DNA of 46,391 bases, from contig JAAYQQ010000104.1 in the NCBI GenBank assembly GCA_012519255.1, forward strand, positions 1-46,391. Reading direction: 5' to 3'. A program made the translations under genes and the position numbers. The notes under the pieces were generated by a model. The model made no database searches. It saw nothing but the letters and a program-made list of their open reading frames with translations, and was not told the DNA's origin. Of this stretch, positions 8,318-18,035 are shown in pieces (position 1 is the first letter of the stretch; the number at the start of each line of letters is the position of its first letter). This stretch comes from Methanobacteriota archaeon (GTDB taxonomy: Archaea; Thermoplasmatota; Thermoplasmata; Methanomassiliicoccales; Methanomassiliicoccaceae).

Positions 8318-8626
8318 TCAGCCGAACAGTGCGCTAAGGCCTGCAGCGGCTTCTTCCTCGCTGACCTCGGGCTTCTTCTCTTCTTCCTTTTTCTCTTCTT
8401 CCTTCTTCTCCTCAGCTGGGGCAGCGGCAGGGGCCGCGGCAACGGGGGCGACAGCAGCAGAGGCGATGGCCTCATCGATGTCGATACCTTCGAGGGACGC
8501 GGTCACAGCCTTTATCCTGGCAGCATCCGGCTCGACGCCGGCGCCCTTCAGGACATTGGCGATCTCTTCCTCGCTAACGGTCTTACCAGCGGCGTGAAGA
8601 ACTAAGGCGCTGTATATGTATTCCAT
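8318..8626 (-). CDS. rpl12: 50S ribosomal protein L12/P1
   Basis: [50 protein letters not shown] + Ala-rich hinge + [21 protein letters not shown]; start trimmed from 8644. Confidence 0.98.
8331..8389. repeat. Direct repeat copy 1 (L12 C-terminal coding)
   Basis: gcgctaaggcctgcagcggcttcttcctcgctgacctcgggcttcttctcttcttcctt; 58/59 nt identical to 8664..8722. Confidence 0.95.
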
Positions 8627-8650
8627 TTTCATTCCTCCATTCACTTTCGT

Positions 8651-9655
8651 TCAATCAAATAGAGCACTAAGGCCTGCAGCGGCTTCTTCCTCGCTGACCT
8701 CGGGCTTCTTCTCTTCTTCCTTCTTCTCTTCGGCCTCCTTCTCCGGGGGCGCTGGGGCGGCAGAGGCCTTGGCGGCCAACTGCTGCTTCAACCTATCGTC
8801 CTCAAGTCCTGGAACGTGAGAGGCAATGGCGAGCATTTCCGCGTTCGCCTTGGCCAGGAGAAGTTTGATATTGTCCTTTGTGGGGATGGCAGCCTCCATA
8901 CTTACGGCATTGGCCTCGCGATACGCCTTAGCCAGCAGCTGTGTGATCGTCTGCTTGGTTGGGTATGCGATACTGACGCCGAGAGCGATGGCATTGCGAG
9001 CCCCAGTGGCTAATAGAGATGGATAATAGTCGGCTGGTATGTCCAGGACATCCTTCTTGTATAGAATACCGTCCTCGAACGCGGCCAATAGATCCATTCC
9101 AATTATCATGGGCAAGATCTCTAGTTTGGGAAGGATCTTGGCAAGCCCCTCTGGGACCTCCTCACCCTTCTTCACCATGACCTTGTCCTTGCGGATAATG
9201 ATCTTGCCACCTTCAATGGCAGCAGGGATGCCCGCCTTCTGCAGTTCGCCTACAATCGGGCCGGGCTTGAAGGGCGTCTCGCCCCCCTTTACTACAATAT
9301 CCTCGGGCGCGATATCGCCGGGCTTGGCGGGTGCCTTGGCCTTGGTGGCCTCCATCTGCTGGAACAACTTGAAGGGATTAGTGGGCGTGGCCACTATGGC
9401 GCACTGACCACTTATCATTGGCTTGATCTGCTCAAGTCCCGGTTTCTGCTTGGCCGCCTCATCGATGGCGATATGCATTAGCCTGTTACGGCTCATCATG
9501 ATCGTGGCATCTTTGGCCCTCATCCCCTGTCGCATGAGCTGCATCTGTGGAGATGGGATGCCGTGGACGTCGACAATGGCCACAACTGGGCTATTCACCA
9601 TGACATCGGCGATCTTCTTGACCCGTTCCTTCTTCCATGCTGCAACGTGTGCCAT
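8651..9655 (-). CDS. rplP0: 50S ribosomal protein L10/P0
   Basis: WKKERVKKIADVMVNSPVVAIVDVHGIPSPQMQLMRQGMR...; acidic C-tail shared with L12. Confidence 0.98.
   Translation of the reverse strand: MAHVAAWKKERVKKIADVMVNSPVVAIVDVHGIPSPQMQLMRQGMRAKDATIMMSRNRLMHIAIDEAAKQKPGLEQIKPMISGQCAIVATPTNPFKLFQQMEATKAKAPAKPGDIAPEDIVVKGGETPFKPGPIVGELQKAGIPAAIEGGKIIIRKDKVMVKKGEEVPEGLAKILPKLEILPMIIGMDLLAAFEDGILYKKDVLDIPADYYPSLLATGARNAIALGVSIAYPTKQTITQLLAKAYREANAVSMEAAIPTKDNIKLLLAKANAEMLAIASHVPGLEDDRLKQQLAAKASAAPAPPEKEAEEKKEEEKKPEVSEEEAAAGLSALFD
8664..8722. repeat. Direct repeat copy 2 (L10 C-terminal coding)
   Basis: gcactaaggcctgcagcggcttcttcctcgctgacctcgggcttcttctcttcttcctt; 58/59 nt identical to 8331..8389. 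Confidence 0.95.
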
Positions 9656-13460: not shown

Positions 13461-14591
13461 TCATCTGATTATATCTACATCAGTGTCCTTTAGACGACTA
13501 TTCTCAGAACTCCTACCCAATATCTGATTGGACTTTACTCCGGTTATTACGACCATGACTCTCATCTTGTCTTCCAGGGCAGGATCGACCGCGGCACCCC
13601 AGATGATACGGGCATTCGGTGACACCTTGGACTGGATGACCTCCGCGACCTTCTGCGCCTCAGAGATAGACATATCTGCCCCTCCCACCACGTTGACCAG
13701 TACTCCAGTGGCTCCGGAGATGTCCATGTCCAGTAATGGAGAGTTGAGGGCATCGTTGATCGCTTCGGTAGCGCGATCGTCGGCATCCTTGTCAGACTCG
13801 CCCAGTCCGATCATGGCCACACCTGCGCCTTTCATGATGGTCCTCACATCGTTAAAGTCCAGGTTCACCAGTCCAGGCTTGGTGATGAGCTCGGTGATGC
13901 CTTTTATGGCTCGCATGAGGACCTCATCGGCAACCTTGAAGGCGGCATTAATACTCAGGCGGGGACACAGCTCGATCAATTTGTCGTTGGGAATAACAAT
14001 TACAGTATCGGCGCTGTTGCGCAATCTCTCCAATCCCCACTCTGCATTTTCCATCCTGAGCCGCCCCTCGCCGCGGAACGGTAGAGTGGTCACGGCGACA
14101 GTCAATGCACCCATATCTTTGGCCTGCTTGGCCACGACAGCCGATGAGCCAGTACCGGTCCCGCCACCCATACCTGCAGTCACGAAGACGATATGAGCAT
14201 CAACAAGAGCTTTGCGCAGTTCATCTTCGGCTTCCCTGGCCGCCTCCTCGCCTACCTGCGGCAATGCGCCTGCTCCCAGACCACGAGTGGCTCGGCGGCC
14301 CAATAATATCTTATTTGGAGATCGAACGGCCAAAAGATGCTGCGCGTCAGTGTTGGCAGCATATAGCTCGGCCCCTACAATGCCTTCCTGGGCAATCCGG
14401 TTGATGGTGTTGCATCCACCTCCACCGCAACCGATGATCTTGATATTTGTTTTTAGCGTCTGGAGCAGTTCCAGCAGGTCAGCGTCAACATCACTGGGCT
14501 GCTCAAATGTTGGCCTGGCTGATGACGTGGGTGCGTATTGAGCACCGACAGGGTCTTCTCTAGCCAGGGCGTCTTCGACCAAAGATTTCAT
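13461..14591 (-). CDS. ftsZ: Cell division protein FtsZ (copy B, FtsZ1-like)
   Basis: [13 protein letters not shown]..., [39 protein letters not shown]. Confidence 0.97.
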
Positions 14592-14976: not shown

Positions 14977-15822
14977 TCAGAGCACCTCTATGGAAACTCC
15001 ATAAGTCTTCTCGGGGAGATCCTTATGAACGCGCCAGGCAACGGCCTCGTCCATCTGCCCAGAGGCAAGGAACGCCTTTGTACGTTTGGGCACAGTGGTG
15101 ATGTTCATGACTGCTCCAGGCCGGGAAGGATCATCGAGGAAATCTGTCTCCATAAGGAAGCGGTCTCCCTTGGACAGGGCTTCTCTCATAGCGCTGCGGC
15201 TGGCCAATATCGATGGAACCAAGCCATAATTCTCATCTTCTCTTACCAGGGGTGAGGAATAGTGTTTGATCACTTTGTTTCTCTCCAATCCTGCCCGGTC
15301 AGCCATGGCAGCAAGCTCGGCCATTACTTGTGGAGTGCCCGATTCAGTGTGCAAGATGACTGGACAAGACGCTTCAGCTGCCAGCTCCATACCGTAGTAG
15401 AGAATGTCATTAGAAGCCTCCCAGATCTCTGAGCTTACCGGGAAGTGGGGTCGCCCGATCTCTCCAATCCCCACAGCCTCTTTTTCCAGCACCAGGTTCT
15501 GAGCCGCCTCCAAACCTTTCTTCATAATGTCTACACCCATCTCCAGTCCGTGTCTTTCTGCCAACCCAAGCAGCAGGACAGGATAGGGTCCCAGAGCGAC
15601 GAACACTCTGGTTTTACAGGTTTCATTGGCCTTCTTGGCCAGCTTAAGGGTGATCTCATAGGAGGTCCGGAAATCCTCACCTTTGACAATAGGGACCTCT
15701 TCATATGGGCTATGGCACAGCACGGCATGGGTGCCGCCGGCCCTGTAAAAATCAGCAAGGGCCACTAACCCTCGCCCATGGGGCTGGAGGTGAATATGAT
15801 TGTCTAATATGGGAATCTTCAG
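14977..15822 (-). CDS. TatD-related metal-dependent hydrolase; start apparently a non-canonical CTG overlapping the TBP stop
   Basis: Frame contains IPILDNHIHLQPHGRGLVALADFYRAGGTHAV; the HxH metal motif lies upstream of the first canonical start (GTG at 15765); no ATG/GTG/TTG in frame after the upstream TAG (15853-15855). Confidence 0.78.
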   Translation of the reverse strand: MKIPILDNHIHLQPHGRGLVALADFYRAGGTHAVLCHSPYEEVPIVKGEDFRTSYEITLKLAKKANETCKTRVFVALGPYPVLLLGLAERHGLEMGVDIMKKGLEAAQNLVLEKEAVGIGEIGRPHFPVSSEIWEASNDILYYGMELAAEASCPVILHTESGTPQVMAELAAMADRAGLERNKVIKHYSSPLVREDENYGLVPSILASRSAMREALSKGDRFLMETDFLDDPSRPGAVMNITTVPKRTKAFLASGQMDEAVAWRVHKDLPEKTYGVSIEVL

Positions 15823-16382
15823 CGCAGCAACCCCGCACTTTTGAGCTCTTCGCTAATCTTCGCGACAGCATCATCAGCGTCCTGCGGCTTCTTTGCCCCA
15901 GTACAAACAAGTTTTCCGGAGCCGAAGAGGAGGATTACCACCTTTGGCTCGTCGAGACGATACACCAGTCCAGGGAACTGTTCCGGTTCGTACTCTACCT
16001 TCTCCAGGCCAAGTGAAATAGCTATGGCGTTGAGATTTATCTCCTGTTCGAGATCTGACGAGGCGACGATGTTCTGGACTTCGACCTTAGGTTCCAGTGT
16101 AACCTTCATACCGATCTCTTGGAGCTGTTTGGCGACCTTGTGGATGGCCACTTTCACTTCCCCAAGGCTCTTGGCCCCGGTGCACACAACCTTGCCGCTC
16201 CGGAACAGCAGAGTAGCTGTCTTAGGTTCTTTGAGGCGATAGATGAGGCCGGGAAACTGCTCCGGTTCATACTCGGCACCATCTAATGCAAGGGCAATTG
16301 CCTGCAGGTCAAGCTCATCCCCTAACGCAGTGGAAGCCACCACGTTTTCGATCTTTATCTTGGCCATGAGGTCACCGCTCAT
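15819..16382 (-). CDS. tbp: TATA-box-binding protein
   Basis: Two TBP repeats: IENVVASTALGDELDLQAIALALDGAEYEPEQFPGLIYRL / VQNIVASSDLEQEINLNAIAISLGLEKVEYEPEQFPGLVYRL; start may be MAKIKIE. Confidence 0.98.
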   Translation of the reverse strand: MSGDLMAKIKIENVVASTALGDELDLQAIALALDGAEYEPEQFPGLIYRLKEPKTATLLFRSGKVVCTGAKSLGEVKVAIHKVAKQLQEIGMKVTLEPKVEVQNIVASSDLEQEINLNAIAISLGLEKVEYEPEQFPGLVYRLDEPKVVILLFGSGKLVCTGAKKPQDADDAVAKISEELKSAGLLR

Positions 16383-16610
16383 GGTATTTAAATGCCTTTA
16401 TATAGCTTTATCCTTAGACGCCCTACTCCTTTAAGGTGTTTTACAAGTGTGAATGCTCCGTCGAGGAAGACATCTGACCGGACCAACAATGCCTTAGAAA
16501 ATACAATTTTATATTGTGAGAATGAAGTTTCTACTGGGGGGCCATAGGATATCTGGCACTGCTGTGGCCTATGCGTTAAGTCTTATATAGTCAATAAGTC
16601 ATAATGACGT

Positions 16611-16643
16611 TTGTCCGACAAATTTAAGAAAATCGTCGGACAA
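16611..16643. promoter_or_regulatory. 9-bp perfect inverted repeat (TTGTCCGAC-N15-GTCGGACAA) near the predicted transcription start of the RHH gene
   Basis: Seen directly; lies between a TATA-like element (tcttatatag, 16581-16590) and the RHH start codon (16662). Confidence 0.6.
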
Positions 16644-16661
16644 TGCTCCCCGAGGCCTGAC

Positions 16662-16973
16662 ATGAGCGAAACTGAAAGGATCACTATCAGAATACCGAGC
16701 GAAAAGGTGAGCGCACTCAACAGCTTGGTAAAGGAGGGCAAATTCCCCACGATCTCCGATGCTATACGTGCAGCAATCGACAGTTTCGTGGAGACACACT
16801 TTACACCCGATCACATTGAAAGAATCACAGTGGAACTTCCCAAGGGGAATGTGGTAGAGCTCGAGTGCCTGGTTAAGGACGGGGATTCCATCTCTATCGA
16901 CGACGCCATTCGAAATGCGGTCAGAGAGTACACCCGCAAGAGGATCACCCGAGCTATGGAGGAGATGGACTAA
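16662..16973 (+). CDS. Tandem ribbon-helix-helix (CopG/CdrS-like) transcriptional regulator
   Basis: Two RHH-like units: ERITIRIPSEKVSALNSLVKEGKFPTISDAIRAAIDSFVE and ERITVELPKGNVVELECLVKDGDSISIDDAIRNAVREYTRKR; ORF track start is 16611. Confidence 0.85.
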   Translation: MSETERITIRIPSEKVSALNSLVKEGKFPTISDAIRAAIDSFVETHFTPDHIERITVELPKGNVVELECLVKDGDSISIDDAIRNAVREYTRKRITRAMEEMD

Positions 16974-16985
16974 CCGCCTCTCCGG

Positions 16986-18035
16986 GTGATGATGGTGGTC
17001 ATTCGAGACATAGATCGGGAGCTCAGCGAGGAGTGTGCCCCGCTCAAGATTCATGTTATCGGCTGTGGAGGGGGTGGCTGCAATAGTGTCAACCGTCTCA
17101 TGGATATAGGCATCCGGGGAGTAGAGACTGTAGCCATCAATACAGACAAGGTCCACCTCCAGACCATTAATTCCCATCGCCGTCTTCTGATCGGCGCTGC
17201 CATGACCAGGGGGCTGGGGGCTGGCGGTATTCCTGATGTGGGAGAGGCATGCATGGAGAATGCATTGGAGCCGCTGAATACCATCCTTAAGGATAGCGAT
17301 CTGACATTCATCACAGTAGGCATGGGCGGCGGAACAGGCACTGGTGTAGCGCCAATTGTGGCCAAGCAGGCCAAACGCCATGGTTCCGTGGTAATAGCAC
17401 TGGCCACCACTCCTTTTGACTTCGAGCGAGGCCGTCGCATGGAAGCGGCCTTATGGGGCATCAAGAAGCTAAACGAGAATGCTGATATGCTACTCTTGCT
17501 GGATAACAATCGTCTCCTCAATATGGCGGGAAACCTGCCAATGAATCAGGGCCTGGCGGTTATGGATCAGCTCATATCTGAAATCATAAAGGGGCTGGTG
17601 GAAGCACTCACTCTGCCGTCTTTGGTAAATCTTGATTATGCCGATCTCAGGACCATAATCCGCCATCGTGGTGTATCTACCATACTATATGGAGAGAGCA
17701 TCGACCCCGAGGGGGCTGTGCAGGATGCACTTAGTAATCCTCTTCTCGAGGTCGACTACGAGGGTGCCACTGGCGCGCTTATCCATGTTACGGGAGGGTC
17801 CAATCTTTCCACCAGGAAGGTCACCAAAGTGCTAAACGGCATCAGCGAGCAACTCGATCCAAATGCTCAGGTCATTTTCGGAGCCAGGGTGGATCCATCC
17901 TTGAGGGATCTGATAAAGGTCATGGCGGTGATCACGGGAATTCGTGAGACGCCGTCTCGCGAAAAGTTTCCGAGAAAGAGCAAGACCAGGTTAGACGATA
18001 CCCTAGGTGAGATCGCCTGCTCCTGCCGAGGGTGA
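16986..18035 (+). CDS. ftsZ: FtsZ-family GTPase, third copy (FtsZ2-like)
   Basis: [50 protein letters not shown]. Confidence 0.93.
   Translation: MMMVVIRDIDRELSEECAPLKIHVIGCGGGGCNSVNRLMDIGIRGVETVAINTDKVHLQTINSHRRLLIGAAMTRGLGAGGIPDVGEACMENALEPLNTILKDSDLTFITVGMGGGTGTGVAPIVAKQAKRHGSVVIALATTPFDFERGRRMEAALWGIKKLNENADMLLLLDNNRLLNMAGNLPMNQGLAVMDQLISEIIKGLVEALTLPSLVNLDYADLRTIIRHRGVSTILYGESIDPEGAVQDALSNPLLEVDYEGATGALIHVTGGSNLSTRKVTKVLNGISEQLDPNAQVIFGARVDPSLRDLIKVMAVITGIRETPSREKFPRKSKTRLDDTLGEIACSCRG

Follow-up and report, generated by a model that had tools for sequence, protein, structure and literature searches.

The window (the whole 46,391-nucleotide stretch of DNA analysed here) carries a gene for a CdrS-like protein with two RHH units directly 5' of an ftsZ2-type gene, and the promoter ahead of the two genes holds a pair of palindromic GTCNGAC boxes whose position and spacing recur in related genomes. 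We consider it likely (probability of about 0.7) that this duplicated CdrS-type regulator is co-transcribed with ftsZ2, binds GTCNGAC and holds cdrS-ftsZ2 under negative autoregulation. What is new is the predicted operator with its regulon, together with the doubled-RHH variant of CdrS. The predicted operator was missed in the preliminary description of this DNA and is stronger evidence of regulation than the points raised there.

A tandem-RHH gene next to ftsZ2

The regulator gene (16662-16973, + strand, stop codon at 16971-16973) encodes a protein of 103 aa. The preliminary description had read two RHH units and a CdrS-like sequence in it, and both readings held up: Pfam RHH_1 (PF01402; whole-protein E 9.4e-10) and the NCBIfam CdrS model each matched two stretches, the latter with 64.7 bits, which differs from CdrS itself in lying below the 100-bit cut-off of this haloarchaeal equivalog. 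When the genome was scanned as a whole, the CdrS model separately matched unit 1 (16674-16796, +), with the conserved strand R6-x-T8-x-R10, and unit 2 (16815-16940, +), with Glu58 at the Arg place of its strand. A sequence search of the PDB for relatives of the regulator returned nothing convincing, and in a fold search the top matches were mostly RHH proteins, none of them significant.

Downstream lies the gene of a 349-aa cell-division GTPase (16986-18035, +), a full FtsZ with PF00091 and PF12327. The gap between the two open reading frames is 12-18 nt, with GTG 16986 or ATG 16989/16992 as the FtsZ start, in agreement with the 12 nt given earlier, and the linkage is kept across the class. 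M. jannaschii FtsZ1 matched the other FtsZ of the window (13461-14591, -) far better (382 bits) than the regulator-linked one (267 bits), and the linked protein was therefore assigned to the FtsZ2 type; linked FtsZs of other genomes likewise gave better scores against the FtsZ2 of the window than against FtsZ1. The short gap and the common upstream promoter suggest that the regulator and ftsZ2 are co-transcribed. A TATA-binding-protein-like gene, recognised by eye, occupies 15819-16382 (-) and is divergent from the putative cdrS-ftsZ2 operon.

Its named relatives put the window in Methanomassiliicoccales, class Thermoplasmata. Of 200 genomes sampled from this class, 191 had a match to the tandem protein, and this class-wide presence rules out a quirk of one genome. 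About 70 loci from about 30 families were read, and the tandem gene stood directly 5' of ftsZ2 in nearly all families examined, the exception being f20, without an adjacent ftsZ. The FtsZ partners of family f2 were divergent; at its loci (L036-L039) both the tandem regulator and the partner have strongly diverged and the promoters carry no paired boxes, as if the module were decaying. The preliminary description had taken the fused form as a sign of an older module. In sister classes within the phylum, however, the place at ftsZ2 is taken by a single-RHH protein of ~80 aa, so the single form is probably ancestral and the doubled form derived, maybe more than once, although tandem forms also occur in families f40 and f49, the f49 copy adjoining ftsZ2. 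The wider CdrS-FtsZ2 module proposed for this lineage is borne out and was already published: cdrS-ftsZ2 co-occurrence is wide in archaea, DPANN excepted (Darnell 2020, PMC7439475), and the accessible part of that paper contains no mention of a tandem CdrS form.

Further RHH-FtsZ pairs were seen beside this module. On C145 of the window's genome (L003), a second tandem-RHH gene (1387-1767, -) lies upstream of a third FtsZ-like gene (476-1279, -), whose 267-aa product has the GTPase domain only, without FtsZ_C; no GTCNGAC box was found in the promoter of this tandem-RHH gene. Contamination as the source of the pair (the assembly is 5.28% contaminated) was ruled out, since the RHH protein is present in 49 of 61 genomes of the order. 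Haloarchaeal plasmid ftsZ genes were also found, one of them with a single RHH gene directly upstream (L360 1539-3233, +, Salinibaculum sp. KK48 plasmid).

GTCNGAC boxes at the cdrS-ftsZ2 promoter

Upstream of the regulator gene, a TATA-box-like element TATATA (16584-16589, +), recognised from its sequence and from its spacing to the box across homologous promoters, is followed by an inverted repeat (16611-16643) that consists of two palindromic boxes. Promoter comparison marks both as predicted operator boxes: box 1, GTCCGAC (16613-16619, +, within TTGTCCGACAA), lies 29 bp 3' of the TATATA start at the presumed transcription start, and box 2, GTCGGAC (16635-16641, +), follows 22 bp from box 1. 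The promoter consensus adds a half-box GAC (16606-16608, +, in the context TGAC) in register 11 bp 5' of box 1; among promoters with the 22-bp spacing, the TGAC half-box is kept at 62-77% per position.

In families sampled broadly, and in counts that ignore relatedness, 64 of the 69 promoters of tandem genes and 33 of the 34 of single-RHH genes had GTCNGAC, while no other of the 64 possible XYZ-N-Z'Y'X' palindromes exceeded 9/69 and 8/34, and shuffled promoters contained the box in a mean of 2.1 of 103 cases (maximum 6). The five tandem promoters of the 69 that have no box belong to families f2 and f20. Spacing separated the two gene types: pairs 21-23 bp apart occurred in 42/69 tandem vs 0/34 single-RHH promoters and pairs 10-12 bp apart in 3/69 vs 9/34, the single-RHH promoters having one box or an 11-bp pair. 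A literature search, with most subscription journals outside its coverage, found no paper naming the GTCNGAC motif.

The distance from the TATA-like element to the box was mostly 25-33 bp in homologous promoters. This would put the box across the transcription start, and archaeal repressors usually sit in this place, 3' of the TATA box (Liao 2021, PMC8406309). The proposed mechanism follows this geometry. The tandem protein is predicted to bind GTCNGAC boxes including those of its own promoter, and because the box pair with its 22-bp spacing overlaps the presumed start immediately 3' of the TATA box, the bound protein would most likely block RNA polymerase and thereby exert negative autoregulation on cdrS-ftsZ2. 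It is the box position that points to a repressor role. The protein might instead be an activator that helps to recruit the basal machinery from the boxes, as proposed for haloarchaeal CdrS, which is mostly located 5' of promoters and is regarded as an activator (PMC8406309); CdrS supports ftsZ1 expression in Haloferax (PMC8406309) and ftsZ2 expression in Halobacterium (PMC7439475). Unlike those CdrS sites, the boxes predicted here lie at the presumed start and not 5' of the promoter, in the usual archaeal repressor place, and we regard activation as unlikely.

The inverted repeat could also act in the RNA, as a leader hairpin instead of a DNA operator, and the window arms TTGTCCGAC and GTCGGACAA could indeed pair as a 9-bp stem. 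Each box is itself palindromic, however, and spacings of 11, 22 and 33 bp as well as single boxes all occur. The boxes also reach across the presumed start and are seen again at smc and ftsZ1. Little covariation was found between the variable centres of paired boxes (11/39 Watson-Crick vs 7 expected), and the hairpin was rejected as very improbable.

Pairing and proposed roles of the two RHH units

Conservation differs between the units. Arg10 of unit 1 was present in 69/69 homologues and its strand keeps R-x-T-x-R, whereas the equivalent residue of unit 2 was Glu in 47 and Asp in 11 (58/69) and never Arg. The missing reading Arg of unit 2 is also a difference from CdrS, a protein of ~55-60 aa with a single RHH domain as opposed to 103 aa with two units here. 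Unit 2 probably serves mainly for oligomerisation, having lost the reading Arg, and unit 1 would provide the DNA-reading strand. A role of unit 2 in oligomerisation could explain why the spacing at tandem-linked promoters is 22 bp and not 11 bp.

The preliminary description had the protein as a single-chain RHH dimer. In such an arrangement the two units of one chain would pair with each other, one chain would occupy one box, and two chains would stand 22 bp apart, a simple match of two boxes to two chains. There is a precedent in AvtR of Acidianus filamentous virus 6 (PDB 4hv0), a protein that likewise has two tandem RHH motifs per chain and that binds DNA in monomeric form (PMC5569661). AvtR differs in being viral and in having another operator, and intrachain pairing is established for AvtR only; it represses its own gene (PMC5569661), as is only predicted for the tandem protein. 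Two AlphaFold monomer models, both of low pTM (0.43 and 0.44), contained all four expected helices as two helix pairs, and neither formed a two-stranded ribbon within the chain. Moreover, only ~6 residues link helix B of unit 1 to the strand of unit 2, and unit 2 is without the reading Arg although both halves of the box are conserved. We rate intrachain pairing as possible but doubtful. Monomer models cannot settle pairing, and our preferred arrangement, in which unit 1 pairs between chains and unit 2 serves in assembly, is at least as likely.

The predicted GTCNGAC regulon

Across whole genomes, box pairs were far more frequent than in the control: counts in 120 genomes gave 89 pairs at 22 bp and 117 at 11 bp, vs 8 and 16 for the reversed pattern. 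Within the window's genome, TTGTCNGACAA occurred in two places only, the promoters of the tandem cdrS and of a second, single-RHH CdrS-like gene on C144 (L002/L108, about 8509-8745, +). This gene is unlinked to ftsZ2, and its promoter has two GTCNGAC boxes 14 bp apart. Paired boxes were also located 5' of smc (C47) and 5' of the gene of a 302-aa membrane protein without a Pfam match (C115). The membrane protein is conserved behind an 11-bp box pair (L220:1286-2194, -, and relatives) and is a candidate new division factor. Further pairs were found on C58, close to the gene of a TPR protein, and on C61, close to a small membrane protein; the C58 target is uncertain because the TATA box faces away from the TPR gene, toward a stretch without a clear ORF. 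At smc and the TPR locus (L218, L223, L224, L227, L232, L256 and others), an element resembling GATGGGATGC recurred directly downstream of the boxes.

Relatives showed boxes again at smc, the membrane protein and the single-RHH gene, with ftsZ1 added (G160, G188, f9, f29); no box was found in the window's own ftsZ1 promoter. ChIP-seq has placed Haloferax volcanii CdrS upstream of ftsZ1 as well (PMC8406309). The boxes at smc, ftsZ1 and the single-RHH paralog point to a cell-cycle regulon, in which chromosome and division genes, the paralog and the membrane-protein gene would be tied to one regulator level.

A box is not assignable to one protein, because many box-bearing genomes hold more than one CdrS-like gene. 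The unlinked single-RHH paralog, or some other factor, might read the boxes and leave the tandem protein with another target or a partner's role. The single-RHH gene was detected in 70 of 120 genomes of the class and has the box in its own promoter, and 11-bp pairs numbered 1.33 per genome with this gene vs 0.48 without it (p 3e-5, a test that ignores relatedness). Yet tandem promoters are boxed in f12, f16, f27, f28 and most of f20, with no single-RHH gene at E 1e-8, and the 22-bp arrangement goes with the tandem gene. We think it improbable that the paralog or another factor is the reader, and take the tandem protein as the predicted reader at its own promoter.

Compared with known systems, the tandem protein is closest in kind to haloarchaeal CdrS (cell division regulator short; NF058555; PMC7439475; PMC8406309), with which it has in common the RHH_1 fold, the direct ftsZ2 linkage, a significant match in both units and, in the window's relatives, ftsZ1 among the predicted targets; smc, predicted here, is absent from the table of published Haloferax ChIP sites (PMC8406309). 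CdrL of haloarchaea (RHH plus zinc ribbon) is likewise an RHH protein of the same locus that regulates cdrS-ftsZ2, whereas the tandem protein has no zinc ribbon and its second domain is another RHH. Saccharolobus aCcr1 is also an RHH cell-cycle factor, controlling the division gene cdvA (PMC7617429), and its model matched the tandem protein weakly; it differs in its single RHH and in ESCRT-based division.

More tentatively, with confidence a little short of even, we propose a phylum-wide cell-cycle regulon of CdrS-type proteins read through GTCNGAC and linking ftsZ1 and ftsZ2 with smc, in which RHH duplication in Thermoplasmata went with a change from a single or 11-bp to a 22-bp operator and unit 2 became a non-reading assembly module. 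Division timing in FtsZ-based archaea is largely open, and known RHH factors control only a small fraction of the cell-cycle genes (2024 review, PMC7617429). With a conserved, explicit operator and named targets, the CdrS-FtsZ2 link moves from synteny to a testable regulon. This regulon would couple division with smc in a phylum for which we found no studied division regulator, and the tandem protein and the box spacing that goes with it offer a natural experiment in the joint change of a DNA-binding fold and its operator.
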